Assembly (NCBI RefSeq): GCF_029542785.1
Contig: NC_083371.1
Location: 744,001-808,000 of the forward strand
Length of the DNA stretch: 64,000 bases
Direction of reading: 5' to 3'
Source: Malassezia japonica
Taxonomy: Eukaryota > Basidiomycota > Malasseziomycetes > Malasseziales > Malasseziaceae
Every line of letters begins with the position of its first letter. Position 1 is the stretch's first letter. The position numbers and the translations under genes are program-made. This document shows, piece by piece, positions 29,931 to 63,187 of this stretch. The notes under the pieces were generated by a model. That model was not told the origin of the DNA. It did no database searches and worked only from the letters and a program-made list of their open reading frames with translations.

Positions 29931-31582
29931 CTACATATCCAGTGCGTGCTGCTCGATCACGTCGTCGATCTTGAGCACGGCGCGGACGAGCTGCGCGGCG
30001 AGGAGGAACTGCTGGCGCTTGGAGACGAGCGGGTCAAAGACGCGGCACTCCTTCATGTCGTTGTCACCGACGCCCATGCAGTCGACGCCGAAACGCGCGT
30101 TCTTCTCGTTGACTTGCCGCGACTTGACCACCGCCAAGTTCTCGATGGGCGCCAGGCCGCTGTTTTCGGCGAGCGCCAGGGGGATCGCGTCCAGGGCTTG
30201 CGCAAACGCACGCATCGCGTACTGCTCAATCGTCGCAATCTCGTCGGCGGTGCGCGACACGGCAATCGACGCGCAGATCTCGGCAGCGCCGCCGCCGTAC
30301 ACCACGCGGTTATCCTTCACGAGGCTGCGGACGACGCACATGGCGTCGTGCAGCGCACGCTTCGCCTCGTCGATGATCATCTTGTTCGAGCCGCGGAGGA
30401 AGGCCGTAACCGCGCGCGAGTTGGCGCACTCTTCAATCACCAGCATGCGGTCGCGCGTCGTGCCAAAGCTGACCTCCTTGACGAGGCCCGCGTGGCCTAG
30501 CTTGTCGGCAGAGAGGTCCTCGAAGCGCGGCACGATGCGACCGTTCGTCGCAATGGCAATCAGCTCGAGTTCGGGACCGCCCACCCAGCGGACGGCCGGC
30601 AGCTCGTGCTGAAGCAGCAGGTGGTTCGCCTCGTCATCAAAGCCCCACTGGCACACGACGAGGTTCGCGCCGCAGTCCTTGATCTTTTGAATCATGCCCT
30701 CAAACGTTTTGCGCTCGTACTCCTCGAGACGGCGGTACTCTTCGACGGAGCTAATGTCGAGCTTGTGCTTCGTCTTGGGACGCGGGGGCTCGAGCGGGCA
30801 TGTGAGGATGGCGATGCGCGCGTCGCGGATCTCACGCGGCATCTGCGGGTGGGACATATCCTTGTCGATCACCACGCCGTGCACGAGCGCCGAGTCCTCG
30901 AGCGAGCCGCCGACCTTGCCGTCGACCTTGATCAGCTCAAAGTCCACGTCGCGGCGCTCGAGGTCCGCGACGCTGAGCACTGCGTCGATCGCGATGCGCG
31001 CAAACTTGTCGGACGCCTTGGAGACGCTGTGTGAGTAGAGTCAACGTACATTTTGCTTCCGAGACACGTCTTGGCGACCTTGAGCAGCTCGTCGATGTGC
31101 TCGCGGGTAAACTCGACCTTGTCGGCGGTCTTTTCGAGCTCGGCGACGGCAATGTCGCACGCGCGCTCAAAGCCGTCGGCGATGCGGATCGGGTGGATAC
31201 CGCGGTCGATCAGCGCCTCGGACTGCTCGAGGAGCGCACCGGCCAGGACCACGACGCCGGTCGTACCGTCGCCAATCTCGTCGTCCTGGCTCTTGGAGAG
31301 CTCCACGAGCAGCTTGGCAATCTGGTGCTCCAGCTCCATGTTCGACATGATCGTCGCACCGTCGTTCGTGACTTGGATATCGCCGTCGGGGCTGATCAGA
31401 ATCTTGTCGAGACCGCGCGGACCAAGCGAGGTGCGCACAATGTTGGACACGGTGCGCGCCGCCTGGATATGGTCCTTGATCGCCTGCGTGCCTTGCGCAC
31501 GCGTCTTCTTTCCCTGCTCACGCACGACAATGAACGGATTGCCGTACTCATCCTGCGCGTACGCCACCTGAGGTTCCGCCAT
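29931..31582 (-). CDS. CCT5: T-complex protein 1 subunit epsilon, one 23-nt intron
   Basis: 542 residues from exons 31050-31582 and 29931-31026. The 23-nt intron (31027-31049) has a GTACGT donor and ends CTCACACAG; removing it joins LGSK to [18 protein letters not shown], restoring the conserved block. Chaperonin signatures are clear: [34 protein letters not shown] and [10 protein letters not shown]. The closest family is the epsilon subunit (CCT5), part of the cytosolic TRiC/CCT ring that folds actin and tubulin. Start at 31582 chosen because [17 protein letters not shown] matches the family N-terminus. Confidence 0.96.
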
Positions 31583-31723
31583 CTTCGCAGCGGGCAGAGT
31601 GCGACGCGCCGCTTTTCGTCGGCCGTGACCCAACATGTTTTTCCTCTCCTGCTAGGTCTATGTGGAGTGTCACGCCCGGCGGCCTGGCGGGCGGCGAACG
31701 GCTACAATACACAGGCGCCAGGC

Positions 31724-32647
31724 TTAGTCCTCCTCCTCCTCGGAGTCGTCGTCGCCCTGCACCTCGGTGTTCTCCTTTTCGACACGGGCCATGAGCTGTG
31801 CGAGTTCCTCGTCCTCGACGGCGGACACCGTCTTGGGCTTCATCTTGATCGAAACCTTGCCGTCGCTCTTCTCGATCGACTCGGTGATCTTTTCGAGCGC
31901 CTGCTCCAGGAGCGCAATGCCGCCCTGCTTGTCCGTAGAGTGGGTAACAAGAACATAGAGCGGAGGAGCGACCAGCTTGATCTTGATGGGGATCGTTTCG
32001 GTGGAGAGCGCCTCGCCAGCGCGCAGCGCCTCCTTCACCGCGTCAATGCCCTCGTAGCCAAAGCAGGACACCTCGACGTCCGCACGGATCTTGACGGGCT
32101 GAGGCGTCAGGCGGCGCGCGATGTTCGCCTCGAGCTCGCGGCGCACGTCCTCGTCGATCTGCAGGCCGTCAAAGACCTTGGCAGCTTCGCTGGGGTGAGT
32201 CTAGGGTACGTACGTAACGGACAGCTTGAATGCATCGTACGAGTGGCCGTACGTACGGTCGAGCGGCCAGACCACAGTCTCGTACAGCTCCTCAATCGGG
32301 CGGCCGAGCTTGCCGGAAACGTGCGCCACAATGCTGTTCACGGCACGCGACTTGGAGTAGCGCTCCTCGCACTTGATCACGTCCTCGGGCGAGACACGGC
32401 GCTTAGACAGGTCAATGTAGCCCTTTTCCTTGTCCACACGGAGCACAACGACCACCTCGTTGCGGCCCACACGGATCAGCTTCTGGATACTGCGGATGCG
32501 TCGTCGCGACAGCTCGGACAAGAGAATCATGCCCTCGGCGTTGTCGTACTCGAGGAGCTTGACGTATGCACCCATCTCGGCAATCTGCCGGACTTGGCAC
32601 ATCACAATCTCCTCCGTGTCGGGGAGCGGTTTCTCGTAGAATCGCAT
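31724..32647 (-). CDS. SUI2: Translation initiation factor eIF2 alpha, one 24-nt intron
   Basis: 299 residues from exons 32214-32647 and 31724-32189; the intron (32190-32213) is 24 nt with GTACGT donor and CTCACCCCAG end. The S1 domain and the regulatory loop [20 protein letters not shown] are present; the serine phosphorylated by Gcn2-type kinases (Ser51 of the family) is Ser47 here. The C-terminus is acidic (DDDSEEEED). eIF2 brings initiator Met-tRNA to the 40S subunit. Length matches yeast Sui2 (304 aa). It lies between UFD2 and CCT5 on the same strand. Confidence 0.96.
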
Positions 32648-32713
32648 CGTGGCCAGTCTATCAAAGAAGGTCGCTACGACGCTCCGCACAAAAACGATCT
32701 GCTCTCGGCCGAA

Positions 32714-35700: not shown

Positions 35701-35834
35701 CGGCCAAATCGGGCAGATACACATAGTTCGGTTCACTCTCCTGCGTCAGCATACACACGTACCGTCAGCGTGACGTGGAACACGTCGGCGGCCGTCGCCG
35801 CCTCCCAGGCCGGCCATACCCCAGCGTCGGCCAT
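32714..35834 (-). CDS. UFD2: Ubiquitin conjugation factor E4 (U-box), one 22-nt intron
   Basis: 1032 residues from exons 35763-35834 and 32714-35740. The 22-nt intron (35741-35762) has GTACGT and CTGACGCAG. Exon 1 encodes MADAGVWPAWEAATAADVFH plus VTLT, which joins to ESEPNYVYLPDLADE. The apparent start MCMLTQ inside the intron is false. The core domain of Ufd2 fills the middle, and the C-terminal U-box is clear (PDEFLDPLLATIMRDPVRLP, SKDPFNRMPLTLDQ). Ufd2 extends ubiquitin chains on pre-ubiquitinated substrates and works with Cdc48 in protein breakdown. It is divergent from ALG1 with 62 bp between start codons. Confidence 0.95.
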
Positions 35835-35896
35835 CGCAGCACACGTAAGAACGTCACGCCTCCACAGTGCCCGGCCGAAACGCACGGGCATTCACC

Positions 35897-37234: not shown

Positions 37235-39692
37235 TGCCCTTGGGCTAGGTACATATTCGCAAGCTCGGTGGGCGTCATAGCACTCTCTGGCACGCGGTCG
37301 TCGCGGCGACGCACAAACCGGGGGAAACGCAGTGAGAGGCCGCGGCCGGGCACGGCGAGGTCCTGCGCCGCGGGGTAGGTCGGCGACACGGTAATGTCGG
37401 CGCCCCGGATCTCCCACACTTCGCGCGGCGGCCAAAAGACGGGCGGCGTGAGGCCGTTTGTCTCGTACAGCCCGTCATGGTCGTACGAAAGGGGGCGCTG
37501 CGCCCGCGCCGAGCCGTACCGCTCGTTCAGCTCTTCGTAAAAGGCGTCGGAAAAACCGCTCATACACTTGCACACCGCCTGGTAGGTGCCCGTCTCGCGA
37601 TCATGCACGGCAAGCAGGATGGGGCTCCAAAACGCCGCTTTGCGGCCCATACCGTGCCACGCACCGATCGGGACCAGGTCGAGCGCATCGCCAAGGCCAG
37701 CGAGGTAGTCTTTCTTGACCTTGAGCCACGCCTCGGTGCGCTTGTCGGGCTCGTAGGTCGCGAGCGGTGCGTCGCGCTCACCGGGCGACCCATCCAGGCT
37801 CTTGATCATTATACCTTCGCAGTGGCTTGCGACAGCATCCTGGAAAAAGGACAACACACCTTCCTCGGTCGTGTCTTCGGACGAGGCCGCGCACGCAAAG
37901 CCTGCATGCTGCGCCGTACTCGGAAGCGTGGGGGGGAAACGCGTGCGGATCGCATCGCGACGCTCGCGAAGCGGTGCGCCAATCATTGGCGTGCCGTCAA
38001 GGTACAGTAGGTCAAAAGCATAGAGGCATACACGGACCTGGACCTGGTCGAGCGACACTTGCTTCCGTGCGCGCCCTGCAAGCGTCTGAAAGGGGAGGAG
38101 CGCACCGCTCTCGGACACCGCAACGACCTCGGCATCGAGGATAAAGGACGAGACATGCTCCAAGAGCCGCGCGGCCATCGCGCAAATGTCGGGGTACTTG
38201 TCCGTAATCGTCTCGAGATGCCGGCTAAAGATGTGCGTGCCAGATGCGCTTGCATGCAGCTGGATACGCTGGCCATCGTACTTGAACTCACTCACAAACG
38301 CGCCGCCGCGCATCGTCGTATGCACCGCGTCGAGCGAGCGCGTAATGCTGCCGAGCATCGGCGTGACGGGGATGCCTGGGTTAGGCAGGGTACGTACCGA
38401 GCGCGAGCGACACGTCATCGAGGCCTTCGATGCCTGTAGCGCGTAGCGCATCGACGAGGCCTTGCCAGTTGGGATGCCGCGCGTAGGCTCGCTTGGCGCG
38501 TGTCTCGGCGAGCGCAAGGGACTCGTCGTCCTGGGGGCCCGACGCGAGCGCGTACGCACGGGCCAGTGCAGCAAGGATCGTCGTGCGCATCGCGTGGATG
38601 CGCAGGTTGGCGCTTAGCGTACGCACAATAAACCGCCGCTCCTCGCCCCGTGCAGCCATCAGCAGGCCACACGCAAGGCTCTGCTTGGCGCTTACCGACT
38701 TGGCGCCGGACGCACGCGCAATCGCATGCAGCGTAGTGTACTACATTAGCACAAAAACGTACCACTTTTCCGATCGTCAGCGGCTCGTGCTGTACGAGCT
38801 GCGTAACGCCGCGGCACGCCTCGAATGCGACGTCGCCCGCGTCACCATGCGCCTTCCACGTCTTGCGCAGGAACGCGAGGGGTCGGCCAGAGACTTGCAT
38901 GGTGATTTTCTGCAGAAGCGAGCCACCAAGTCCAAGCTCGAGGCCCGCGTACGACGGCGCAATCTCGTTGCTCATCAGGTAGAGGGCAGCGACCAGCTGC
39001 GAGGGTTCATGGTGCAGCACAATGCGCACAAGGTTCGTAAGGATGCGCAGGATCGTGATGCGCGAACGCTCGCCACTCGCACGAGCAAAACCGTGCGCAA
39101 AGAGGGCATATGGGACATGCAGCAAAGTATCGCACGGCCAGTGCGCCGTGTCGATGCATGCCGGCTCGAATTCGGCTGGGTCCTGTGTGAGATCCAAGGC
39201 GGCGATGCCCGCGTCAAGCTGGCCGACGTCGACCCCGCGGCGTGCCGCTTTGGGGGTATAGGTTGGCGCACTTTGGGTCTCTAGTGCACACTGGGTATCC
39301 TCGGCCTGTGCATCTGCGGCAGTCGCTTTGTCCTCGGCCGGCGTGCCGGCAGACGCCACCAGGGACGCATAATGCGCCTTGGACGGCACCCCATTGGTAT
39401 CCGTCTCTGGCGCATCTGACGGCCCTGGAGCGGGCATACTCCCTTCTTCTGCCCATGCCTCTTGCAGTGCACGCGCCATTGCTTCGTCCGCCTCGATTTG
39501 TGCCGTGTCCGAGGCGAGTTGGCGTGCATACGCCTCGTCTTCTGTAACCTGTGTCTTTTTATCGCCATCCTTGGGCGACAGAAACGAAAGGAGCGACGTC
39601 TGCGGCGAGCCTGCATGGCTCTGTGTGCGCCGCTTTGGTGTGCGCACCGGCGACCCCGGCGCTCCCCGGCGCTTGGACGGCGTCGTGGGCAT
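37204..39692 (-). CDS. CDC9: DNA ligase I, two 22-nt introns
   Basis: 814 residues from exons 38763-39692, 38398-38740 and 37204-38375. Both introns (38741-38762 and 38376-38397) are 22 nt with GTACGT donors and CTAATGTAG / CTAACCCAG ends. The N-terminus holds a PCNA-binding-like motif (QTSLLSFLS). The adenylation motif is FKYDGQR with the nucleotide-accepting lysine; LKVKKDYL is motif V and LRFPRFVRRRDD closes the OB-fold part. Cdc9 seals nicks between Okazaki fragments and in excision repair. The start codon is 36 bp from the divergent YKU80 start. Without the introns the gene looks broken into overlapping ORFs. Confidence 0.95.
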
Positions 39693-39728
39693 GGCCTGTG
39701 CGATGTGGAGAAGTTGGCTCTGGACGCG

Positions 39729-41976
39729 ATGGCCTCGTCGTTGGGCCAGCGGACGCTGGTCACGTTCGTGCTCGATGTGTCGGAGCCGATGGGTACAAGT
39801 GATGGCGGGCGTTCGCGCCTCGACCGAAGTACGGCGTTTGCATCGCTGCGCGTACTGGAGATGGTAAGTCGCCCTACTCATGCAGATGTTGCGGGGCCTC
39901 GCGACGATCAAAGTGTGCCTCATAGCGTATGGTTCCGAACGTATGTCGCCCATCTCACGCAGGAACCAACAACATCGTGCGCCGCAACGGTGTAACCGAA
40001 GGATACGAAGGTGTAGATGAAGTGTGGCCGCCGTCGCGGCCGACGCTCGCGACGCTCGAAGTGCTCAGCGCGCTGCGTCCTGCGCGACGCGCGACGCGCT
40101 GTGACCGTACGTGTTTGAACTAATGCAGCCCTCGACGCGCTTATTGTTGCGATCGTATCCATGGTCGACAAGCAGCACGGCGAGCCGTCGCCGGCGTGGA
40201 CGCGCATTGTGTATCTCGTGACGCGCGCCGACGTCACGCTCAACACGGCCGACGTCGAGATGATCAAGGCGCGGCTCGCGCAAGAGTCCATCCAGCTGCG
40301 CGTGATGGGATTTGATTTCCCCGCGTCGCCGATGCAGGCGCCGAAGCTCGAGGCGCCGCCCACCGTGCCGTGGTTCAACGTGGGATTCTGGCGCACGATG
40401 CTTGACGGCCTTCCTCATGCGGCGTACGCGAGCGCCGAAGACGCCGAAGAGCAGGCGCTCCTTCCGAATACACAGCTCGCCAGGTCGGCGCCGACCAGTC
40501 TGCAGCTCACGTTTGGGCGTCCGGATGGCGACGAGGCGCACACGCTCTCGATTGCCGTGCAGCTCCTCAAGGCGACCGCGGTGCAGCGCCCCATGACCCA
40601 GCGCAAGGTGCTCAAGAAAGAGGACGGCGCGCCACAGGCAGTTGATGCACGCCGCGTCTACTACAAGGTCGCCGACGTACTCCATGCCGAGGACTTGGAC
40701 CAAGTCAAGCCGCTCCCTGACGAGAGCCACGCGTCGTTCCAGCGCGCCTTTAAGCTCGGCGCGTCGCTCGTGCCGATGCAACATGCGATGGAGGCGCCGC
40801 TCGAGACGCACCAAGGCCTCGAGGTGCTGCACTTTGTGCACGCCTCGACCTACCGTCGCGAGTTCCACCTTGGCGAGACGCACTACGTCATCGCGAATCC
40901 CAAGTCGCCGCGCGCGCAGATCGCGCTCTCGAGTCTGGTGCAGGCGGCGCTCGTCAAAGACGTGTATATCTTGTGCCGCCTCGTCTCGCGCGAGCACGCG
41001 GATCCGAAGCTGTGTGTCCTTGCGCCGCTGGTCGAGCAGGAGATGGACTGCTTCTGCATGACGCGCGTCCCTTTCCGCGAAGACGTGAAGCGCTTCGCCT
41101 TCCCTCCTCTGGACCGCGTGCCGACCAAGACCGGGAGCGAATTGACAGAGCACGCGACGATTCCCACCGCGGCGCAGCAGCAGGATATGGATGCGTTTGT
41201 CGACGCGATGGATCTCATGGACATGGACCCCGACGGGGACGCCGAGGGCTGGTACGCGCCCCAGCTCAGCTTCAATCCTGCGATCCACGGCGTGAAGAAC
41301 GCGGTCAAGTGGCGCTTCCTCGCACCGGACAAGACCGAGCTACCCGAGCTGCACCCCGTTCTGCGCCAGTTCCTCGCGACGCCGGACGACGCCGAGGCGC
41401 GCGCCCGTCCGGTGCGCGACGCGTGTGCGAATGCGTTTGCGCCGCCGCAGCGCGCCGCCCCGAAACGCGACGCGCCTTCCACGCCGAGCAAGAAGCCGCG
41501 CGCCGACTCGGACTCGGACGCGACGCCGGACGAAGACGCACCGGATGTCTCTACGGAATACGTGGCTGTGCCCGACGGACGCATACGCACCGCGCACGCC
41601 GTCGACGATTTCGAGGCGCTCGTGTACAGTACCGAGGCTGTGACGGAGACGTGCAATGCGATGCAGCAAGTGCTCTTTGCCCTTATTGCACAGAACCCAT
41701 CGGCCTCCCAATTTCCCGCCATCTGCCGCGCCTTGCATGCATACCGCGCGGCAGCGATGGAGCTCGAAGAGGCCGTGCCCTTTAACCGGTACGTCGCGCG
41801 GCTGACCCAGGTTTTTGCGCAAATGGAAGAAGCGCGTGCTCGCTATGGTCCCTGCGCTATGGGACGACGCACTCCAGCACCGCGAGGATCTCGGCCTGAT
41901 CACCCACGATCAGGACGCGGCACACCGCTCCGACGTCACGGCGCAGGACGCCGTGCGCTTTGTAGCCTCCACATAG
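39729..41976 (+). CDS. YKU80: Ku80 DNA end-binding protein, four 22-nt introns
   Basis: 719 residues from exons 39729-39863, 39886-39940, 39963-40106, 40129-41788 and 41811-41976. All four introns are exactly 22 nt. The joined N-terminus reads MASSLGQRTLVTFVLDVSEP then MG, the von Willebrand A-like start of Ku80, and continues IKVCLIAYGSERTNNI. The beta-barrel region includes VLHFVHASTYRREFHLGE. The C-terminus after the last intron (FLRKWKKRVLAMV) completes the Ku core; an Asp/Ser-rich linker precedes it. Ku80 with Ku70 binds DNA ends for non-homologous end joining and telomere protection. The stop codon is three bases before the APC4 ATG. Confidence 0.92.
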
Positions 41977-41979
41977 ACC

Positions 41980-44556
41980 ATGACGGAGCAGCGGCGCGTC
42001 GAGCTGCCCAAGACGGCGCAGCTGCTAGCGTCCGCATGCAATCCGTGCATGGACCTGATTGCGCTGCTGTGCCTGGATAGCGCACCGCCACTCGCGGCGG
42101 TCGGTCCACCGGGCCTGACGCCCGCGCAGCTTGCGATGCGCCAAAAGATGCTTGCTTTTCAGGCGCGTCGCCTCGGCGTGACGAACCCAGCGGCAGGCCG
42201 CCAGCAGCAGTCTGGCGCGCGCCGTGGGCCCCAGATCAAGCTGGCACTGTGGCGCTCGGGTGCCAAGAGCAACCAGGTCTGGGAGGTGGACGTCGTTCTT
42301 CCAAAACGCCTCTTTCCAGAGACGGACGCCAAGGACTTTGCCGAGACGGTGCGCGTCGCACAGGTTTGCTGGAGCCCAAACGGTACGTATTTTGGCTCAC
42401 ACAGGCGAACGACTGGCTGTGCGCTTGTTTGCGATGCGCACAGGCGCCACGTCCGTGCACGCCTCGGCCCTGCTCCTCTATTCCGTGTATGACGGCAGCG
42501 TCCTTTATACTCGCACGCTCCCTTATCAGCCGTCAGGCTCGGGCGGCTCGTGCAGCATGCAGTGGATACCTCTGGAGGTGAGTCGCGTGCCGTCGCAAGC
42601 GCTCGCGATGCTACAGGCGCTTGCGCCGCTCCCACCGGTCGAAGACGTCCAGGCGCAGCCGGCGCATGTACGCCCGATCCCTGGCGCACGCCATGCGGCT
42701 CCGGCCGTGCCGAAACCGAGCGCAGGCATCGCGCAAGGCGACGGAGTCCTTGCGCAGCTCCCTGCACTGGCGCATGCCGCCGACGATGCCGAGACCGTGC
42801 AAACGTCGCTTCTCTATGTCTTCGACGATACCGGCGCGCTGTCCGTCTTTTTGGACGGTACCGTGTGCCTTGGTACGTGCGGCGTGCTTGCCGATGCGGT
42901 GCTTGTGCACGCCGCACCGCGCCGTGCGGCAGTGCTCGGCACGTCGCTCGCGCAAGTGTCGTTGCCGCTGCACGGCGACCGCCTACTGGCCGTGCACCAC
43001 CTCGCTCAGCTGAGCACGGCACTGCAGCACGAGCTTGCACATGCAGCAGATGCCGTGCACTGTGCGTCACAGGCGTGGCGCACGCTCGCACGTCCCCGCG
43101 CCGCTGAATGGCATACGCATCTCGAGGACCTCGCCAAGCGGTACGCGGTCGACATTGGCCTCGAGCTCATGACGCTCGTCATGACCGGGCGCGCGGCGCC
43201 TGCATCCGAGCAGCTGCTGTTGCACAATCTAACGGAAGGCGTACGTTTTTCTACTTACACAGACGACGATTGCCATGGAGCAAGACGCACGCCGTGGCCT
43301 CAAGCTTATTCGGCGGTACGCTGGCACGACGCTTGTGCCGGCATGTGAGCACATGCTCATCTTGCTCCAGGAACTGCAAGGATGTGCACAGTGGCCCGAG
43401 CGCTTTGCGTCGTTCTTGGGCCAGGCCGATGTCGAGCTTGCGCAGCTCGTTGGCGACGTGCAGACATGCCATGCCGTTGCGATCGCTCTGCAAGAGCAGA
43501 CGGAGCGCGAGCTACTGGCCCTCGACGAGTTTTACAAGTGGTGGCGCATGGGTACGTCGCTGAACTCACGCAGAACAAGACCGGCAGGAGCGGCTCAAGT
43601 CCGAAGAGGCGCCGCATGTCATTACCTCGCACGACACGCTCACGGTGCTCGAGCTGCTGCGCCGCGGCTTTCTCTCGCCGGAGCTCGACGCGCTGCTTGG
43701 CGCGCCCGAGCCGCCGAAGCGCGATGCGGACATGTCGGCGGACGACTCGAACGTCGCGCCGCCGATCACCGACGTCGGCGAAGTCGTGTACAGCGCGCCG
43801 AGCGAGACCCCGCCGCCGAGCGCAGCCGCAGTGCGCGATACGATCGCGTGGCTGGAGAACGGCGCGCCCGACCGTCCGGCGGACGGCAACGTGTATGCCG
43901 TTCCCCAGCTCTTTTCCGAGCCCGAGTCGCGTTTTCACGGCCCACGCACGCTGCCTGGCGATGCACGGGCGCTTGCTGAGCGTTTCGAAGGCGTGAGTGC
44001 ACGCCTTGCGTCGCTCCTTTCCAACGCACTTGGTCAGACCCTCGAGCATGTGAGCAGCGCCGAGCATGCGCTTCCCCTCGGTGACGTGTTGTGCCGCGAT
44101 GATACCCTGTGCTCCCTGCCGCCCGACACGCCCCGCACGCAGCTGCACCCCCAGCTCGTGCGCAGCGACGGGCCGTATGCGGTGCTTTCCGACGCGGAGG
44201 CCAGCCGGCTGCATGTACTGCACACCGATGAAACCGAGGTACGTGTCGTGGACGTGGCGCTGCCGCCGTGGCGTGGTGCGGCGGTGCGCATGGTCGATGT
44301 AGCGTGGCTCCGGCCTGGGCACCTGCTTGTCCTCGGCACGACCGGCGCCTTTTTCCTCGGCGTGCTCGCGGTGGACGACCCTCATGCGTGGCGCGATGTG
44401 GTCCCACTAGCGTGGCACGACCTGACAAAAGAGCGCGAGGCGATCGAGCCGAGCCGCCTTGCGGTGCGCCGCGCGTCAGACACGCTTGCCGTGCTCGGAA
44501 GCGACCAGCGGACGCTTGCGCACTATGCGCTTCCTCTCCCGAGTGACGCGATGTAG
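41980..44556 (+). CDS. APC4: Anaphase-promoting complex subunit 4, three 22-nt introns
   Basis: 836 residues from exons 41980-42382, 42405-43240, 43263-43551 and 43574-44556, separated by three introns of exactly 22 nt. The N-terminal part fits the Apc4 WD40-like propeller (ACNPCMDLIALLCLD; CWSPNGERLAVRLF). The middle matches the Apc4 long helical domain: LTEG then TTIAMEQDARRGLKLIRRYA and LVPACEHMLILLQELQG. The C-terminal third looks like more propeller blades. Apc4 is a scaffold of the APC/C ubiquitin ligase that drives mitotic exit. It starts three bases after the YKU80 stop codon. Confidence 0.85.
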
Positions 44557-48752: not shown

Positions 48753-49800
48753 TCACAGTACAACACACGCGAACACAGCCGCGGCCGTCATGGCAGCCAT
48801 GAGCGGCATCGGCGTCGTGAGCGCGAAAGCGCTGCTTGGGCGGACGAGACTGTGTGAGCATAGGTGACGTACTGTCCGTTTCCGTGGTTGCGCAGGATCG
48901 TGTGCACGTACAGCACCGCGACACGGCCGTCGATCGCCGTACCGTTGGGCGGCGCCACCTCGGGATGGTTGATCCCGTCGGAAGTCGCATTGAGCAGGCG
49001 GCCTGCTTCGACCCACTGGACGGTGGCGCTGTACTTGTTGCCCTCCCACTCAATCCCTTCTTTTCTCGTAGCAATGTCCACGATGTTGTCACGGCCATTG
49101 TTGTATCCGTTCGGGGAGATTGTGTGCGCCTTGTCGAGGCCTTCCTCGTACGAGCTCGCAAGAAAGACGGCAGTGCCGGCCCGGCCGGTATTCTGGATGA
49201 ACCAGCGGAAATGGTTTCCGCCCTCGATCGTCTCACGACATGTGCCGACCGACGGCAGCCCATAGTTCCAGCGCAGCACACCGTTGTTGCCCGACATGGA
49301 TCCTTGCTGGACGTGTGGGTTCTCGGCGCCGAGGTTGGCGTACATGAAGCCCTCATCGTCGCCCTGGCCGAGGCACGACACACCAAAGCCAAGTGCCGTC
49401 GCCCACACCAGGAAGCCTTCAGGCTCGAGCACGTCGGGCGACGACATACTCGACAAGATCACATTCATCGGCTCGCCAAACGGATCCTTGACATTGAAGC
49501 GCTGGGTGAGTAGTGGATACATACGGCAAGCATCTCGCCGTGCGAGTCCAGCGGGTCCACAAAGCCCTTGGGAAGCGGCGGCAGTGTCGCTGTCGCCGTC
49601 GTATTCGTGCTATTTCCACTCGCGGTGGCCGTAACGTTTCCCGAGGCGGTGGCATTGCCGGCACTGGTCGCGTTCGCCGAACCCGCGCTCGAGCTGGATC
49701 CCGACGAGCTTCCAGAGGATGCGGACGAACTCGGACTTTGCGCAATTACGCCCTGGCAAACAGCCAGGAGAAGCAGGCCCAAGATGCGCCTTACTCGCAT
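48753..49800 (-). CDS. Secreted, probably GPI-anchored protein of unknown function, two 23-nt introns
   Basis: 333 residues from exons 49525-49800, 48873-49501 and 48753-48849. Introns are 23 nt each. The N-terminus MRVRRILGLLLLAVCQGVIA is a signal peptide followed by a Ser/Thr/Asn-rich stalk full of N-glycosylation sites. The body (FNVKDPFGEPMNVILSS, GGNHFRWFIQNTGRAGTAVF) resembles a fungal secreted-protein family without known activity. If the second intron is spliced, the end becomes a Ser/Ala stretch plus a hydrophobic tail (MAAMTAAAVFACVVL), a classic GPI-attachment signal; unspliced, it would end in a basic tail. I prefer the spliced form. Likely a cell-surface protein. Confidence 0.78.
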
Positions 49801-53527: not shown

Positions 53528-53574
53528 TTTTGTTTGTAGAGTATACCTGGATTCAATGAGACAATTATAATACA

Positions 53575-54673
53575 TCATTGCACTACGAAGCGGCGCGGGC
53601 GCTTGGCGACGCTGCCTTCGTCAGCACCGCCGCGCAGCCGCGCCGTGTACAGGTTCGCGCTCGGCAGGCGACTATCGTTGGCGCCCAGCGAGGCGTACCA
53701 GCTCGACTTGTAGTTTACCGCACGCAGCAGGGGTTTCTTGGTATCCAGGGCCACAGGGGGCAGCGGCGCGTGCACCTGCGCCGCATTTTCAGTCAGGGTG
53801 GTATCGGGGGCGGGTTCAGGCTGCGACGGCGCCGCGGCTGGCTCCGCGGCCGGGGACGGCCCGGCCGGTGCCGCAGGCTCCGTGGCGGCGGGCTCGGACG
53901 ACTTCGCGGGCTCCGAGGGCACGGGCGGCGCAGGAGCGGACGTCTGTGTCGTCTCGATCTCTTCGATCTTGGCGTCCTCACCCTCTTTGAGCTGCAGCTC
54001 GGGCAGGGCGGCCTTATCCGTCTCGCGGATCAGTCGCCGGAGCGACGTCTCGACGAGGCGTGCGTTATCGAGCTTGCGGTTCACCAGCTGCATCATCGGC
54101 AGCTCCGACAGCATCTGCGTCGCATACACTGGCGTAAACATCCAGCAGTGGCGCGGGGGCTGCGGCGGCAAATGATCGGGCACGACATCGTTCATGAGTT
54201 TTTTCCACACGGATTTTTCGTCCTTTTCTTCGTCCTCGTCCTCGTCGTCGGACGGGAGAAACTCAGCCATGGGGTCCGCCCACTCCTCCGTCTCGCGGCG
54301 CGCCTGCGGGAGGCGGAGGCGGGTACGCTCGGCGCTGTGCTCGCCGGCTTCGCGGGCGTACGACATAAGCGACGGCCCGTCGATGCCGAGGTACTCGTAG
54401 GTATACAGCACATCATGCACCGTCGGCGACTGCCTATTCGACTGCGCAGCAAGCTGTGAGGCGCTCCGCGTGAGGGTCATCAAGACTGGGTAAGATACGG
54501 CACATACAGTCGTCGACCAATTCGGTCATGCGGCGGATCGCGCTCGATTGCGCGCCTTCGTACCCACACTGCTGCGCAATACGCACCAGCAGCTCGTGGA
54601 TCACATACTCTGCGTCGGGCATGCCGAGATCCGGCTTTGCGCGGCCGGGCGGCCGGTACGTCGTCACGCCCAT
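53575..54673 (-). CDS. TAF8: TFIID subunit TAF8, one 22-nt intron
   Basis: 358 residues from exons 54508-54673 and 53575-54485. The intron (54486-54507, 22 nt) has GTATGT and CTTACCCAG. Joined, the N-terminus forms a histone fold (DAEYVIHELLVRIAQQCGYE, MTELVDD, then SASQLAAQSNRQSPTVHDVL). The TAF8 C-terminal motif VVPDHLPPQPPRHCWMFTPVY follows. A long Pro/Ala/Glu-rich tail ends in a basic RPRRFVVQ, possibly a nuclear signal. TAF8 pairs with TAF10 within TFIID. The start codon is 42 bp from the divergent YCH1-like gene, with GTGGAG between them. Confidence 0.88.
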
Positions 54674-54715
54674 CGTCACGGAGGCGTGGAGGAACTCTCG
54701 GCCGAAGTGACCTCC

Positions 54716-55216
54716 ATGCTCGGCTCGGCTCGTGCGGCGCCTCGGCGTGGCTTGTCCCAGTACTTTGTGCGCAACGCTTCCAGGATGTCCTTCACACCGC
54801 CCTACAAGTACGTAGACGCGGATGCGCTCGCACAAGAACTGCGTTCGCGTGCTGCCCAGCCGAAAAAGCTGGCGGTCGTCGACGTGCGCGACGACGACTA
54901 CGAAGGTGGCCACATTGTCGGTGCGATCCATGCGCCGTCGTCGACGTTCCTGGACCGTGTCGACTCGCTCGTGAAGGATATGGCGGACTATGAACAGGTC
55001 GTCTTTCACTGCTCTTTGTCACAGCAGCGGGGACCCAAGTCTGCGCGCATCTTCCGCGAGACGCGCGACGCACAGACGGCGGCCGGCAAGCTCTCGGGGG
55101 CCACGGAGCAGCAGGTGCTCGTGCTCCGCGACGGCTTTGCGAACTTTGGCCCCAAGTTCAAGGACGACAAGGATCTCGTGCAAGACTGGGACGAAGAGTC
55201 GTGGAAGTGGCGTTAA
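54716..55216 (+). CDS. YCH1: Rhodanese/Cdc25-like phosphatase (Ych1/Ibp1 type)
   Basis: 166 residues. The rhodanese-like fold carries VVDVRDDDYEGGHIVGAIHA and the phosphatase loop HCSLSQQRG (Cys-x5-Arg), the arrangement of Cdc25-related and Ych1/Ibp1/Acr2 enzymes. A second in-frame ATG lies at 54785 (MSFTPPYKYVD), where most family members begin. The extra 23 residues (MLGSARAAPRRGLSQYFVRN) are basic without acidic residues, as in a mitochondrial presequence. Either start is possible, so dual location is conceivable. The substrate could be phosphotyrosine proteins or arsenate; sequence does not decide. Confidence 0.87.
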   Translation: MLGSARAAPRRGLSQYFVRNASRMSFTPPYKYVDADALAQELRSRAAQPKKLAVVDVRDDDYEGGHIVGAIHAPSSTFLDRVDSLVKDMADYEQVVFHCSLSQQRGPKSARIFRETRDAQTAAGKLSGATEQQVLVLRDGFANFGPKFKDDKDLVQDWDEESWKWR

Positions 55217-55365
55217 TAGCACTATGTAAGATACGTTGGGTCACGGCGGTTGGCTCCGGCTTCTACGGTGGCGCATGACACCCTGCCGTGCGCCAAGGCG
55301 GCTTTGAAGTGGAGGTAGAGTCGGCGACCCGAATTTTGCGCAGCTTCTCTCGCGCTCCACGCACG

Positions 55366-57358
55366 ATGGCGACCGCGGCTGAGCACGGCATGAGCGAGCG
55401 TACGGGCTCGAACATTCAGGTACAGAGAGAAAAGGCGGATGTGGCGTCTGACCTCCCGCCACAGTGCCGCACACCCGTGACGGCGGCGGCGCTTGCGGCG
55501 CTCCCCGACAATTTGGAAGGCGGCCCTGCTCTCCGGGGCAATCTCTCCCGCAGGGCGAGTGTATCAGAAGCAAGCGATACTGGAAGCACACGCTCTGTTG
55601 TCGATGCGGTACGTGTTGATACTTATGCAGCTTGATCTCTCGCTCTCCCTACCCTACTGGCTGGCGTACGTGCGTGCCGAGGCGACACGCTACGCCGAGG
55701 ATCTGGACCGCCGTATGCATACGCTGTTGGACGAGCAAAGCACCGACGGACGTGCATTGCGTGCGCCGCTGGCCATGGTCGCGCACCAGCTCGATGCCGC
55801 CTACCATGCGGTGGGGCACATGTCGCAGCGCCTGCCGACGTCCACTGCTCTGTTCGAGAGCATCCCCTCGCGCAACGACCTGCACGGAAAGATGAGAACG
55901 CTGATCCACGACTGGGAGCACCGTGCACGCACCTTTCATCCTACGCTCTTCACGCCATCCGTGCCACTGTCGCTGCGGTCGGTGGAGCTGGAAGGCGTCG
56001 CCGATGGCAAGGTGGCACTCGTCGACGAGCTGCCTGCGTGGACGTATGCATCTCCCCTGGACATGATCCAAGGCGAATGGACATCCGGTGTCTATGTTCC
56101 GAGCACGTCCGAAGTCTCGGAGGAGGTGCACCGCCGTCTGAACCACTTTTTTGAGCAAATGTACAATATTCCGATGCACCTGAGCGCTGGTGCGCTACCT
56201 GCGCGCATCGTCGCGTTGGAGCAGCCCGCGTCCGACCTGCTGCACCGCTTCGAAGAGACGCTCGATTCGGTGAGCAAGCGCGGGCGTGCCGGTGCCACCG
56301 AGTTCGTGCACCGTGCGAGCCGTGCGGTGCACGACATGGAGGACGCCGTGTACCAGGCGGCGTGTGAACTCGCGCGCGAAGGGCGAGTTTTGATTTCGTA
56401 CGATAACCTCCCCATGCTGTGGCGCAACAACGACTGCATCCACACAGGCTATCGGTTCATCCCCGTGCGGAACTGGACGACGCTACTGCGCAGCATCTTT
56501 CAAATCCACAACGAGACGGGCAACATCCACACACACCTTGGCGGCCTGGTGCTCGTTGCTGGCCTGTACTACTTTGCCGGTGCGCTGGACTCCCTCACGA
56601 CGCCGATGGACCGCTGGATCCAGACGCTCTATCTGATTGCGGCGGCCAAGTGTCTTGCGTGCTCCGTGTCGTGGCATGTGATGGCCGGGTGTGCGGACCT
56701 GCAGTGGTTCCAGTGCTTTGCGTGTATTGACTACACCGGCATTTCCTGGCTGGTCGCTGCGTCGCTGCTTACGCTGGTGTACAATGGCTTTTACTGCCAG
56801 CCCCACTTGATTGCCTTGTACTCGGTCGGTGTCTTTGCGCTCGGCGCGACGATGGGCATCCTTCCCTGGGCGCCGTGGTTTGACGATCCCAAGAACCGCT
56901 CGCTGCGTATTTCCCTCTTCATTTTCATGGCGCTGGTCGGTCTCGTGCCCTTCTCTCACGGCGCGTACCTGCACGGCTTTTGGCGGATGTATGCCTTTTA
57001 CGCGCCGGTGCTCCCCAGTCTGGCGTCGTACGTGGCGGGTGTTGCGGTGTATGCGATGCGCTTTCCCGAGAAGTACTGGCCCGGGCGCTTTGACCTCGTG
57101 GGCCACTCACACCAGATGTGGCACATTGCGATTGTGGTGGCGATTGCGCTGCACTTCCGCGCCATCCTCCTCTTTCACGAGAACCGCTTCGCGTACAGCC
57201 ACGTGAGTGGATCGTGTCCCTCGATGCAGTGGCCGTCGCTCAACGTGGCGGCCGCCTGGCCCTGGCTATCGCTGCAGGCATCGAGTACCTGGCCGTGGCT
57301 CGTAGAGAATCTCGGCGCGGTGCGCGGCGCACTGTCGCAGCATCTGCCCGACTTGTAG
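55366..57358 (+). CDS. AdipoR/hemolysin-III (PAQR, IZH-like) membrane protein with long N-terminus, one 22-nt intron
   Basis: 656 residues from exons 55366-55608 and 55631-57358. The intron is 22 nt (GTACGT donor, CTTATGCAG end) and joins VVDA to LDLSLSLPYWLAYVRAE. About 375 residues of soluble, partly helical sequence precede the PAQR membrane domain. Zinc-binding family motifs are present: NETGNIHTHLGG, SVSWHVMAGC in place of the usual S-x3-H, and VGHSHQMWHI with the two C-terminal histidines. Seven or so helices follow. Fungal Izh proteins act in sterol and zinc homeostasis. The long front part has no domain that I recognise. Confidence 0.88.
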
Positions 57359-57426
57359 ATAAGGTAACCATGTACGATCAATGGCAGCCACAGGCGCTGT
57401 ACCAAGCATGGCTACGGTATCTGCGA

Positions 57427-58741
57427 CTACGCTTGCTCGTTCTTTGACGATGCCTTCTCCGACTCGTCGTTCGACGAGACGATCGCCGCGGCCGCGTCCT
57501 CGCTGGCCTGATCCACTTCTTCTTCGCTCGCGCCCTGACCCGAGAGCACGCGCGGGATGGCCGAGAGCAGGCCACCCGAGCCCAAGCCGTTGAGGGAGAG
57601 GGCCACGTTGCGTTGCGCAGCGTTGCTACCGCCAAACAGCGACTGCTGCTGTGCGTCCTGTTGGAGGTGCGTGCGGAAGACCGGGGGGACGTTCTCTGGT
57701 GTGTCGTAGCCAACCTTGTTCTCCACGCGCTGCTTCACCCACTGGTACCACTCCTGCTTGGTGCGGTCGCCGAGCATGGCCACAATGAGGAGGGTCATAT
57801 TATCGCAGCCAATGCCACCGACTTCTGCGTCGGGAGCGAGGCACCGGTCAATGATGTCTTCGCAGATGGTGGTGAGCTCCTTCTCCTGCGCAATCCCTCT
57901 CCGGACGAGATCGACCACCTGTTGGTTCGACAAGCAGTCCCAAATACCGTCGCATGCGAGTACCAAAAACTCCTCCTCGCCGGTGTAGTCGTGCGAAATC
58001 ACCTGGGGGTCGGCCGTGACAATTTGCTGCTCGGCGGGCAGCGAGGCGTTCTGCTTGAACTCAAAGTCGCCCAGCGCGCGGCTCAGCGCCAGGTTGCCGT
58101 TCACACGGTCGAACTCGACAAAGCCGCCCGCGTTGAGGATGCGCGAGTGCTCCTCGGGGTTGCTCGGCTTATGGTCATAGCTCATCGGCTTGGCCTCACC
58201 AGAGAGGCCGAGCACGCAACGCGAATCGCCCGAGTTGGCGCAGTAGATACGGCGGCCATTCGTCTCCGACTCGGGCACGAGCAGCGCAGCAACCGCGGTA
58301 CAGCCCGATGTGTCGTTCGCGTACACGGGGTCTGCTGTGAGATAAGCAACGTACCGATACGAAGATCCTCGTCAGTCTTGAGGAAGGCACGGCGCAGCGC
58401 CGACTCCCACTTGTGCTCCTTGAACTCGGGCAGTTCCACGAGACGGCCATGCACCGTGCGGCCTGCGTACCGTGCAACGTTTGCGCCTGAATGAGAAAAA
58501 ATAGAAACGTACCGCCGTGGCCGTCGTACACAGCAAAAAAGCTCACGCGCTCCTTCGACGGCACATTCACGTCCTCCGGGAGGTTCAGCACAGCAGCGTG
58601 CGCGTCCTCCATCGAGATACGCCAGCCCTGCATGTCGGACACGCAGTACAGGTGACGGTCATCCTCACCACGCGACGTGCGCTGTCTTAGAAATGATCCA
58701 CGTACCTTGTCCACAATGGGCTCCGAAAGAATTTGTCCCAT
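57427..58741 (-). CDS. PTC2: PP2C-type Ser/Thr phosphatase, three ultrashort introns
   Basis: 414 residues from exons 58706-58741, 58513-58681, 58355-58486 and 57427-58334. Introns are 24, 26 and 20 nt; the last has a second CAG three bases on, giving 23 nt and one residue less. PP2C metal-binding motifs are present: [64 protein letters not shown] and ACDGIWDCL. The C-terminal 100 residues are acidic and low-complexity. The N-terminal MGQ could be myristoylated, as in related enzymes. It belongs to the Ptc2/Ptc3 group that dampens stress MAP kinase and checkpoint signals; the exact paralogue is uncertain. Confidence 0.92.
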
Positions 58742-58939
58742 TTTTAAATCGTGTTGGTACTTCCCCCAGACTCAATCACCGGAGCGAAGAACGAGGGCCC
58801 GCGACAACGATCGCTCGGTCGCGCTGCGCTGTTTGGCACGTTGCTGCGCGCGCCGGGCGGCTGACCTCGGCCGAGGATTCACGTGACGGCCTCTTTTAGT
58901 TTTGCATCGCCAGCGCCGCCTCCGCTTGTGGACGAGAAG

Positions 58940-60009
58940 ATGGTGCGTATGCGCACGGCTCACAGCAGCGTCCTATTGTGCTTTCGGGGCACACCCGTTC
59001 TTTGAACCAGATCAAGTTCAATCGCGAGGGCGATTTGCTGTTCTCGGTTTCCAAGGATAACCTAGTCAACGCGTGGTTCTCGCACAATGGCGAGCGCCTC
59101 GGCACCTACAACGGCCACAACGGTACCGTGTGGTCGGTGGACGTGGACAACACCTCGACGCTGCTCGTGACTGGCTCGGCTGACAACCAGATGCGTCTGT
59201 GGGAGGTCAAGACGGGCCAGTGCCTCTATACGTGGGAGTTCCCTACCGCGGTCAAGTGCGTGCAGTTCAACCGCGACGGCACCGAGATTCTGATGATCAC
59301 GGAAGAGCGTATGGGCTACCGCGGCGCGCTGCGCGTGTTCAAGGTGAACCGCGACCCGGCGTCCTGGACGAAGCAGGCGGACGAGCCGACGCGCACCGTC
59401 ACCTTCTCGGGCTCCAAGGCGACCGTCGCCTCGTTTGACGCCCTCGACCACCACATCATCACTGGTCACGAAAACGGAAAGGTGGCGCTCTACGGCCACG
59501 ACTCCGAGTACCCGGAATCGGGCATCGACGCGGAGCTCGAGCTGCACCACGTCGACGCGCACACCGACACCATCACCGATTTGCAGCTGGGCTGGGACAA
59601 GACCTACTTGGTCACCTCGTCCAAGGACAAGTCGTCGAAGCTCCTCGACGCGCTCAAGCTCGACATCATCAAGACATACGCGACCGACACGCCGCTCAAC
59701 TCGGCCATCGCGCACCCCACGCGCCCGTACGTGATTGTCGGCGGTGGTCAGGAGGCGATGAGCGTCACGACCACCAGCTCGCGCCAGGGCAAGTTCGAGT
59801 CGCGCTTCTGGCACAAGGTGTTTGAGGAGGAGTGCGCACGCCTCCCGGGCCACTTTGGTCCCATCAACACCCTCGCCATCCACCCGACGGGCAAGGCGTA
59901 CGCGAGCGGCGGAGAGGACGGCTACGTCCGTGTCAACTGGTTTGACCCTACCTTCTTCACCGCAAAGCCGTACGGCAACGAATTTGAAATCCCGGAGGAG
60001 GACGAGTAG
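58940..60009 (+). CDS. TIF34: Translation initiation factor eIF3 subunit i, ATG-only first exon
   Basis: 347 residues from exons 58940-58942 and 58969-60009. The first exon codes only the ATG, followed by an intron with a GTGCGT donor. The acceptor is a tandem CAGCAG: using the second (26-nt intron) gives MRPIVLSGHTRSLNQIKFNR, which matches the family; the first (23 nt) adds one Gln. Seven WD40 blades follow, including the signature DNLVNAWFSHNGERLGTYNG and the C-terminal GKAYASGGEDGYVRVNWFD. eIF3i is part of the eIF3 scaffold on the 40S subunit. Confidence 0.95.
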
Positions 60010-60059
60010 AGAGATAGCACGATACCACCGACGCCTTTCATCACGTGCCAACGAACACG

Positions 60060-61361
60060 ATGAGCACGGAGCAGCGCGAGGGCGTCCAAGGTAGGTGCCG
60101 CGCCTGACGCAGTCGAGGTACGCCAGCGCTCCGACTCGCTCCTGGAGCGCGAGGAGGTCGAGCGCCGCATCGAGGCGGCGCTCGCCGCGTGGGAGGGGTG
60201 CACGACCGAGCGCGTCGTGCCGCGCGACGCGTACGCGTCGCTCGCCGACGACGTCGAGCGCGTGTACATCGCCGAGAGCGGTACGTCGCACGACTCACAC
60301 AGACTCGGGCGCACCGCGCGTGCAGCACGCCAAGCTCATCGTGCACGTGTACCGCCCGTGCCCGGTGGACAATGTCGACGAGTTTGGCGTGGGCGACGCC
60401 GAGAGCCAGGGCATGGACAATAGCGTGGCCGCGACGCTCGCCGAGCTGCCGAACCGCGGCCTGGACGGGGTGTGGGAAACGTACGTCACTTTGCTAACGC
60501 AGCCTCGTGTATACCGACGACGTCAAGGCACGTCTCTTGCATTATATCTATACCACGATGCGCTTCGCTGCACGCGGCATCGACCAAAACGTCATTACGT
60601 GCAACCGCGTGGTCCTCCTGCACGGGCCGCCGGGCACCGGCAAGACGAGCCTGTGCCGCGCTCTCGCGCAAAAGCTCGCGATCCGCCTCGGCGCGCAGTA
60701 CACACACGGCAAGCTCGTCGAAATCAACTCGCACTCGCTCTTTTCCAAGTGGTTCTCCGAGTCGGGCAAGCTCGTGCACCGCCTCTTTGAGCTCATTGCC
60801 GAGCTTCTCGAGGACGAATCGGGTTTTGTCGTCGTGCTCATTGACGAAATCGAGAGCCTGTCCAAGGCACGCTCATCAGCCGCTGCGGGCGTCGAGCCGT
60901 CTGACTCGATCCGCGTCGTGAATGCGCTCCTGACCGAGCTCGACAAGCTCAAGCAGCGCCAGAACGTGCTTGTAATGACGACGTCGAACCTTTCCGAGTC
61001 GATCGACCCTGCGTTCCTCGACCGCGCAGACATCCGGCAGTACATCGGCCTGCCGGGCACCGAGGCGGTATACAAAATCCTGCAGTCGTGCCTCGCCGAG
61101 CTCGTGCGCGTCGGGCTCGCCAGCCACGAGGAGCTCGCAGCGTACAGCGACGCGGCCGCGGCGGGCGGCGCGTCGGCGGCGCTCCTCGCATTGGCCGAGT
61201 CGTGCCGCGGCGCGTCGGGGCGCTCGCTGCGCCGCATGCCGGTCCTCGCACACGCACGCCATCTGCACGCACGCGCACACCCCTCGTGCCACGACTGGGT
61301 CGTCGCGATGCAGGCGGCATGGACAGAAATGCAGCGCGATGCCGCGCGCACGTCTTCGTAA
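60060..61361 (+). CDS. PCH2: Pch2/TRIP13 AAA+ ATPase, three 22-nt introns
   Basis: 411 residues from exons 60060-60090, 60113-60280, 60303-60480 and 60503-61361. All three introns are 22 nt, the first with a GTAGGT donor. The joined sequence includes LPNRGLDGVWETLVYTDDVK, Walker A LLHGPPGTGKTSLCRALAQK, INSHSLFSKWFSESGKLVH, Walker B VVLIDEIESL and the sensor segment TTSNLSESID. Pch2/TRIP13 remodels HORMA proteins (Mad2, Hop1) for the spindle and meiotic checkpoints. It starts 50 bp after the TIF34 stop. A Pch2 gene in a lineage without well-known meiosis is worth noting. Confidence 0.94.
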
Positions 61362-61373
61362 TAGGTAGGGTAT

Positions 61374-63187
61374 CTACGAACTGTCGCGCACGGCGCCATG
61401 CTCCGCGCCGCTCTTGCCCTTCCAGTACGCGTGGCGGTCCGCCTTGCTGAGGCTCGATTTGGACCGCTTTGCACGCCCCGCGATCGCCAGGCCCTGGCCC
61501 GCCTCGGGCGCAGGCGCGGGCGCGGGCGCAGGCGCAGGCGGCGCGTCGCTGTCGCTCGACTCGGTGACGAACGGCGCGTCGTTCGTGAGCAAATCTGCGT
61601 CCGAGTCGCTCGGCTCGGCGGGCGGCGCGTACATGTCGCGCTGGCGCTTGCGTGTGCGGCTCGGCGCGGCGTACTTTGAGTCTTCTTCGCTCGCGCCCGA
61701 GCTCGGCTGGAGCTTGCGCACCTTGGCCTGGGGCGTGCTGATCTCGACCTCTGGCGCATCGTCCGGGCGTACGCCCGCGTCGCGTTCGGCGGCCGCACGC
61801 TTGGTCTTGGCACGTTTCTTGGGTGCCTCTTCCTCCGCGGCGCGCTTCTCGCCCTTGGCGAGAGGCGGGAACTCGGCGAGGCGGCCCTGGAGCGCGTGCG
61901 ACTCGAACAGGTCCTTGATCTCGGTGCGCCGCTTGATCATTTCGCGCGACACGCCGAGCACCGAGCCGAGCAAGCTCTCGGGCTCTTTTGTCTGGCTGGT
62001 AATGTGCAGGCGCGAGTCGCCCTCGTCGCCAAAGTGGGTGTGCGTGCTCTGCTGCTGCGCGTCGTGCAGTGCGCGCTGGCGCGTACGAAAAGCGTGCAAG
62101 TCGTTGGCGCGCTCGCACAGCGCCGCGTGCAGGATATCGAATGCACCGCCGAGTGCGGACCGCACGCTGATCACGGCAAACGAGCCCTTGGCGATATCGT
62201 TCCCGACGTCGTGCGGGTCTTCGATGCAGAGCAAAAACGGCTTGCGTGCGTCGTACCACCCCCGCTTGCGCTTGTTAAAGTAACCCCCCAGACCCCGCAC
62301 GGTAATCCCGCTCTCGTCGTACCCAAAGTTTTTGCCGTACAGCTCGAGGAGCTCCATGAGCAGCGTGCCGAGGTTGCGTTCCGCGGCGATCTCTTCCATT
62401 TGCAGCTTGGGATGCAGCTGCAGAAACGATAGGATCATGAGCGTGACGCTGTATGAGCCGAGGCCGCCGGTGAACACTTCCGAGAGCGCGCGCTGCTGCA
62501 AGAGCTGCTTGACGACCATCACGAGCGGCCGCAAGCCCGGCATCTTGGCGAGCCAGCGGTTGACGAGCCGCGCGGCCTGCAGTCCGTTGGCCTGGTTGAT
62601 CGAGATATCGACGTGAAAGTGGCCATAGGTGCACACAAACTTGATGATCGGCACCTTGGCGCGTCCAATGACCTGGATGTCCTTTGCGAGGCCGTGCGCC
62701 CGGAGGCACCCCGCAATGCTGCGCAGCGTCGTCTCGCGGGGACGCAGGTCCATGGACTTGGACAGAACTACAAGGTCGATGTCGCTGCGTGAGCTAGAGT
62801 ACGTACCCCTGCGGCAGGTACAGCTGTGTGTCCTGTGACCCAAACGAGCGTACTTCGGCGTCCGGCCACTCGGAGCACAGCGCGCGCTGCAGCAGCTCGA
62901 TCACCATCACGCGGCACGCGTGCTCCTCTTGTGTAGGGCAGATCCACTGCGAGTAGGTCTTTACCTCTGCGTTCAACCTGCGTCAGCGGCGCGACGTACA
63001 TTTCGGCCACGTTCCGGTACCGGTGCCACTCGACATCGGTCGCCCACGGCGTGCTGCGCGCGGTGGCGTGCTCGCGCACCGCATCGTCGACAGTCGTCGC
63101 CTGCTTCTCCTCGGGCACATCACTCTCGCTCCCCTCCCCCAGGTCGAAGGCGATGTAGTCGTCCGCGCCGAATCCAGGCGCGCTCAT
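61374..63187 (-). CDS. TRF4: TRF4-type non-canonical poly(A) polymerase, two 22-nt introns
   Basis: 589 residues from exons 63000-63187, 62807-62977 and 61374-62784. Both introns are 22 nt (GTACGT; CTGACGCAG and CTCACGCAG). Intron removal builds the nucleotidyltransferase motif SFGSQDTQLYLPQGDIDLVV with the catalytic Asp pair; the third Asp lies in FHVDISIN. The PAP-associated region includes GGLGSYSVTLMILSFLQLHP. The C-terminal third is basic and Ala/Pro-rich. Trf4/Pap2 is the polymerase of the TRAMP complex that tails RNAs for the nuclear exosome. It is divergent from PRP5 with 54 bp between start codons. Confidence 0.93.

Follow-up and report, generated by a model that had tools for sequence, protein, structure and literature searches.

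Introns of Malassezia yeasts have already been called very short (PMC7426719), and the parts of the literature cited here give a median of 30 nucleotides (nt) over 2150 introns in M. restricta (PMC9241646, Table 1), for the annotation of which the intron minimum was set at 20 and 15 (PMC6473144), and a mean of 79 over 3943 introns in M. globosa (PMC4634964). Here, we analyzed a 64-kb stretch of the Malassezia japonica genome (contig NC_083371.1, positions 744,001 to 808,000 of the forward strand; 64,000 nt in all, referred to as the window), in which a population of spliceosomal introns, most of them exactly 22 nt long, had been predicted from the sequence. Compared with the reports above, the present case has the genus, a compact genome, short introns and a comparable intron number in common but differs in its 22-nt mode, which holds ∼80% of the class with GTACGT donors and CAG acceptors, and in a fixed spacing between donor and branch point that the cited portions of those reports do not describe. 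No description of 22-nt introns or of branch spacing in Malassezia was found in the literature searched, and an earlier report could exist.

Several distant lineages offer parallels in intron architecture. The 15- to 16-nt introns of Stentor coeruleus resemble those of this genome in having nearly a single length and a branch A (position 10 of 15 nt) lying 5 nt before the terminal G, but they are AU-rich, without a strong branch consensus, and have a shorter donor-to-branch step; moreover, Slu7 and Prp18 are entered as N/A for Stentor in the authors' table (PMC9505925), whereas both are present here. Mikrocytos mackini (PMC10245619) likewise has uniform (16 to 17 nt), conserved introns, but it is an intracellular parasite whose spliceosome is highly reduced and whose introns number 224, unlike the present yeast with its estimated ∼4000. 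Yarrowia (PMC2483917) and Trichomonas (PMC12316389), the type B introns of which measure 23 to 25 nt, share with this genome a fixed branch-to-AG distance with no polypyrimidine tract in between, and the presumed branch A is anchored to the acceptor at a fixed, very short distance here. Both contain far fewer introns (63 active in T. vaginalis and 719 listed for Yarrowia), far below the 2553 matches obtained here from one donor type, and a single-length peak, present here, is not described for Yarrowia in the text cited. The original prediction, which regarded such introns as otherwise best known from ciliates and nucleomorphs, can therefore be widened to mikrocytids and Trichomonas type B introns, with the short introns of Malassezia itself already on record.

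The putative introns of the window share, on one strand, the motif GTANGT-N7-CTNAY-N-YAG, with GT and AG at their ends. When a loose form of this motif was scanned over lengths of 14 to 120 on both strands, with expectations taken from 20 dinucleotide shuffles, 21 matches were obtained at 22 nt (0.5 expected), compared with 4 at the runner-up length of 23 nt (0.65 expected) and at most 4 at every length other than 22 up to 120; two of the 21 are probably chance matches (10847, and 58947, where a 26-nt candidate can also be read as 22 nt). The tight motif recovered 26 units, comprising 19 of exactly 22 nt and the seven of 23 to 26 nt given in Table 1. All 19 positions predicted to hold a 22-nt intron contain a 22-nt segment fitting GTANGT...CTNAY N YAG (17 with CAG and 2 with TAG ends). 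Of the 28 introns originally announced, 26 were thus recovered, and the remaining two are not identifiable from those 19 positions; the accompanying number of 14 genes disagrees with the list given with it, which names 15. Thirteen joined gene models were built from the window, containing 25 of the 26 units. Judging from motif, joined frames and homology, these units are very probably U2-type spliceosomal introns, as had been proposed. Along the window, positions 1 to 31000 contain no tight-motif intron, while all 26 lie within 31027 to 63000. Intron density climbs with GC content (rho 0.67) across a 264-kb sample that adds 19 stretches of contig C1 and one of contig C2 to the window.

To place the window in its genomic context, the whole genome (8.43 Mb, nine contigs) was scanned with GTACGTN{1,31}CTNAYNCAG, combining the commonest donor and acceptor over 16 to 46 nt, and with the reversed motif as a control. 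The scan returned 2553 matches versus 22 for the control, including 2039 versus 1 at exactly 22 nt and 5 versus 5 at 15 to 21 nt, so that ∼80% of this class falls at 22 nt, in a narrow peak below ∼25 nt. As had been proposed, a mode this sharp at 22 nt suggests that the splicing machinery imposes a constraint. In the 264-kb sample, the tight motif found 132 units, and GTACGT served as the donor in 60 of the 85 matches of 22 nt; extrapolation from this sample puts the genome total at an estimated ∼4000, a motif-based figure that misses introns without this motif.

The position of the branch A appears to set this lower edge. Among the genome-wide GTACGT matches with 5 nt from the branch A to the terminal G (A-to-G 5), the A lies at position 17 in 2039, below 17 in 5 (control, 5) and beyond 17 in about 510. 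The five matches below 22 nt measure 17, 17, 18, 19 and 20 nt, and no 21-nt GTACGT unit in the genome pairs a branch A at +16 with the usual acceptor. Within the 264-kb sample, where A-to-G 5 is the dominant distance, no GTANGT donor was followed by a branch A at 11 to 16 with an A-to-G distance of 3 to 7, compared with 83 having the A at 17; the combination of branch 17 and acceptor 5 occurred at 79 of 389 GTANGT sites versus 0 of 1304 sites with mutated donors, and none of the 14 GTANGT matches in the A-to-G 6 class had the A below 17 (4 at 17). Because a limit on length would bar 21-nt introns and allow a branch A at 16 with the acceptor at 6, we searched for CTNAYCAG, in which the acceptor is one base nearer to the branch. 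Following GTACGT donors genome-wide, this gave 60 matches (reversed control, 13 over all lengths), 39 of which were 21 nt long with the branch A at +17, with 1 shorter and 20 longer. The share with the A at 17 was 80% for A-to-G 5 versus 65% for A-to-G 4 in raw counts and about 80% versus 83% after subtraction of the controls. The two 21-nt designs are therefore opposed, with none for branch 16/acceptor 5 and 39 for branch 17/acceptor 4. Since 21-nt forms occur with the A at 17 and never with the A at 16, the fixed quantity would be the donor-to-branch step (G1 to A17, 16 nt), and what is measured would be the distance from donor to branch point, not total length. The suggested constraint on intron length as such is corrected accordingly: the wall stands at branch A +17, and 21-nt introns exist with the acceptor one base closer.

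Homology checks covered the 21-nt units of loci L048, L055 and L046 as well as METTL16, out of 13 such units in twelve loci. An ungapped alignment of 150 residues with a solved-structure relative crosses one 22-nt and one 21-nt unit in L048, the 21-nt join of L055 matches a nucleotidase (SSM1/SDT1) apart from a one-residue gap where the exons meet, and that of L046 matches a TsaD/Qri7 protein; when retained, the 21-nt units of all three loci lead to a stop in the coding frame. In addition, the 21-nt introns, with the AG 4 nt past the A, carry the branch sequence CTCAC in 36 of 39 cases versus 22 of 84 for 22-nt introns (Fisher test, 2e-12), as do 7 of 9 A-to-G 4 introns of 22 and 23 nt.

Removal of the window units was claimed to restore a conserved block in each case, which homology backs for 16 of the 26, including 13 of the 19 22-nt units, the other 10 having frame or motif evidence. 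Five models were searched against solved-structure relatives, with ungapped junctions in CCT5, CDC9 (two), TRF4 (two) and PP2C (one of two) and a single-residue gap nearby in SUI2, while eight were searched for Pfam domains, the spans of which cover the single junction of TAF8, two of the three in APC4, and one each among the four of YKU80 and the two of the sirtuin gene. All three PCH2 joins fit orthologs of named Malassezia species and of Ustilago, the first join being the weakest, and ortholog agreement for the single UFD2 intron was judged by eye, its top named relatives all being Malassezia (M. brasiliensis, 74%; M. vespertilionis, 66%; M. yamatoensis, 65%). In a blind frame test over the 264-kb sample, joining lengthened the frame in 67 of 83 candidates of 22 nt (14 shorter, 2 equal) and in 34 of 49 longer candidates, versus 509 of 1614 mock 22-nt introns nearby. 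Public protein records look wrong or read through at some short introns: the M. brasiliensis PCH2 record (P0054) contains a garbled stretch, that of a 77% identical metagenomic relative (P0048) carries nine extra residues at an intron position by apparent read-through, and record P0001 begins with MLTQ, which corresponds to an intron tail and is apparently misannotated.

Table 1. Putative ultrashort introns of the window and its U2 small nuclear RNA (snRNA) gene, with the evidence for each (positions within the window)
Feature	Position	Strand	Evidence
23-nt intron, CCT5	31027..31049	-	Motif; spliced protein ungapped against TCP-1 epsilon over 528 residues, junction at residue 200.7
24-nt intron, SUI2 (eIF2alpha), AG 6 nt past branch A	32190..32213	-	Motif; eIF2alpha alignment crosses junction, one single-residue gap near
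22-nt intron, UFD2	35741..35762	-	Motif; joined reading agrees by eye with the N-termini of the orthologs from M. brasiliensis and M. yamatoensis
22-nt intron, CDC9 (DNA ligase 1)	38376..38397	-	Motif; no gap at junction in ligase alignment
22-nt intron, CDC9	38741..38762	-	Motif; no gap at junction in ligase alignment
22-nt intron, YKU80	39864..39885	+	Motif and joined frame only
22-nt intron, YKU80	39941..39962	+	Motif and joined frame only
22-nt intron, YKU80	40107..40128	+	Motif and joined frame only
22-nt intron, YKU80	41789..41810	+	Motif; junction inside Ku_PK_bind domain; unspliced frame longer in crude frame test
22-nt intron, APC4	42383..42404	+	Motif and joined frame
22-nt intron, APC4	43241..43262	+	Motif; junction inside ANAPC4 domain
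22-nt intron, APC4	43552..43573	+	Motif; junction inside ANAPC4 domain, six residues before its end
22-nt intron, sirtuin gene	47191..47212	-	Motif; junction inside SIR2 domain
22-nt intron, sirtuin gene	47353..47374	-	Motif and joined frame; junction at SIR2 domain edge
23-nt intron, secreted/glycosylphosphatidylinositol (GPI)-like gene	48850..48872	-	Motif and joined frame only; no Pfam match above cutoff
23-nt intron, secreted/GPI-like gene	49502..49524	-	Motif and joined frame only
22-nt intron, TAF8	54486..54507	-	Motif; junction inside Bromo_TP domain
22-nt intron, PAQR/HlyIII-domain gene	55609..55630	+	Motif and joined frame; domain does not reach junction
23-nt intron, PP2C	58332..58354	-	Joined frame; junction within gapped stretch of PP2C alignment
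26-nt intron, PP2C	58487..58512	-	Motif; no gap at junction in alignment
26-nt candidate intron, gene labeled TIF34 in the original prediction only	58943..58968	+	Motif and joined frame only
22-nt intron, PCH2	60091..60112	+	Motif; ortholog alignment, near an N-terminus reached by some orthologs only
22-nt intron, PCH2	60281..60302	+	Motif; ortholog alignment
22-nt intron, PCH2	60481..60502	+	Motif; ortholog alignment; 9 extra residues here in metagenomic relative P0048
22-nt intron, TRF4	62785..62806	-	Motif; no gap at junction in alignment
22-nt intron, TRF4	62978..62999	-	Motif; no gap at junction in alignment
U2 snRNA gene, canonical GUAGUA branch-recognition sequence	19486..19677	+	Rfam RF00004, 123.1 bits

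The intron interior is 55% GC, and positions 7 to 13 show base biases and no common sequence; similarity of the introner type was looked for between intron bodies and not seen. Weak internal signals as in Stentor were not found either, the strict motif being ∼100 times as frequent as its reversed control, in a search that motif-less introns would escape. Donor position +4 is C in 66 of the 85 unselected 22-nt matches (window plus L011-L030) and in 89% of a pooled 173, of which 100 had been preselected for C. METTL16 is reportedly associated with an A at this position; its loss, considered as a cause of the few +4 A donors, was rejected, since the genome has a PF05971 gene containing NPPF. Regarding the RNA components, U2 contains GUAGUA and U6 contains ACAGAGA, the canonical pairing sequences, and both genes were found readily by Rfam. 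No Rfam U1 match at E ≤ 1 was obtained in the genome, with 41 of 132 first-look candidates scored, and the U1 5' end ATACTTACCTG is absent from it. The sequence ATACGTACCTG, the reverse complement of which resembles the donor, occurs six times (reversed control, 4), and none of the six sites has an Rfam U1 match or looks U1-like by eye, so a compensatory U1 change for the GTACGT donor is not supported; U1 may simply have diverged.

Considering these features, it is quite probable that we are dealing with U2-type introns eroded by deletion to a spliceosomal floor, at which the branch A can come no closer to the donor than position 17. Deletion pressure would drive introns to the smallest donor-to-branch spacing that is accepted, leaving a one-sided upward tail, and the acceptor would be the AG usually 5 nt past the branch A, for a total of 22 nt; occasionally it would be an AG at 4, or at 6 and beyond, with totals of 21 or 23 nt, for example. 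The limit would be steric, the donor hexamer (positions 1 to 6) and the branch heptamer (positions 12 to 18, which we take to be placed by the UACUAAC register, with A17 as the presumed branch nucleotide) lying just 5 nt apart, and it may stem from U1 and U2 clashing as the spliceosome assembles or from the U6/U2 geometry at a later stage. Both the abrupt lower edge and the variable interiors would fit old introns that were shortened separately. In the PP2C intron at 58332 to 58354, an AG 3 nt past the branch A (20 nt) must be passed over for the AG at 23 nt, which is consistent with a minimum branch-to-AG step.

Several observations weigh against this explanation. The A at 17 is less concentrated in the A-to-G 6, 7 and 8 classes of the sample (4/14, 0/8 and 0/5), one A-to-G 8 unit and one unit of the mutated-donor control have the branch A below 17, and the ruler is best seen for A-to-G 4 and 5 and, genome-wide, for GTACGT donors only. 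The METTL16 21-nt intron separates the spliced from the retained reading by only 1.9 bits (183.3 versus 181.4, Pfam), and 14 of the 83 candidates of 22 nt fail the crude frame test. Loss of Slu7 and Prp18, predicted from the short fixed branch-to-acceptor distance, was rejected, both genes being present (that of Prp18 is interrupted by units of 34, 22 and 23 nt and reaches 143 bits after joining). Finally, position 17 is not a universal steric limit and would be specific to this lineage, given that the branch A of spliced Stentor introns sits at 10 (PMC9505925).

A more far-reaching reading, which we consider unlikely, is that the intron is read as a rigid composite (hexamer, 5-nt linker, heptamer, one base, CAG) with a 16-nt ruler and without a separate acceptor search or a polypyrimidine/U2AF step, the donor having drifted to +4 C in step with a changed U1, one that escapes the standard model. 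A limit of at least 22 nt on the total intron, or on the lariat plus tail, as suggested originally, would agree with 22 nt being the mode and with A-to-G 5 units almost never being shorter, but the 39 matches of 21 nt that place the branch A at 17, three of which were compared with relatives of solved structure, and the absence of 21-nt units with the A at 16 make it very improbable; since the two designs have the same length and frame, the branch position is what discriminates.

No more credible is a recent spread of a single mobile or introner-like element: the thousands of equal-length units with identical ends would speak for it, yet positions 7 to 13 are biased without sharing a sequence, and the extra residues of the metagenomic PCH2 record, at the same intron position, fit an old shared intron. 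We give equally little weight to selection by mRNA surveillance, in which avoidance of lengths divisible by three, not spliceosome geometry, would fix the length. It draws on the under-representation of such lengths among sampled units above 22 nt (9/49, P = 0.03) and on 22 being of the form 3n+1, and depletion of 3n introns is reportedly seen in Paramecium; it leaves unexplained the missing 19- and 20-nt classes and the contrast between the two 21-nt designs, and it may act in addition. That the segments are a DNA or protein-coding motif rather than introns can almost be dismissed, given the ungapped joins to distant proteins after removal and the longer frames in 67/83. Erosion to a donor-to-branch floor thus stays our preferred explanation.

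As far as the literature searched shows, a 22-nt mode with a wall in a fungus, the evidence that the restriction acts on donor-to-branch spacing, and introns that are at once numerous, very short and strict in their signals are apparently new. According to a published trend, signals are degenerate where introns are very short and strict where introns are few (PMC2483917), and the many strict and very short introns found here sit badly with it, within the text cited. The degree of conflict depends on how intron-poor is defined, as U. maydis is called intron-poor there despite 4859 tabulated introns (PMC2483917) and M. sympodialis is counted among intron-poor genomes (PMC8476143). For annotation, gene callers that bar introns below ∼30 nt would break genes in this genome, the M. 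brasiliensis PCH2 record being an apparent example. Thus, this member of Malassezia would hold thousands of natural introns at an apparent spliceosomal limit, the sequences of which allow the smallest donor-to-branch and branch-to-acceptor distances to be read off, and it would provide a natural test of the smallest working intron in a genus with published assemblies for several species.

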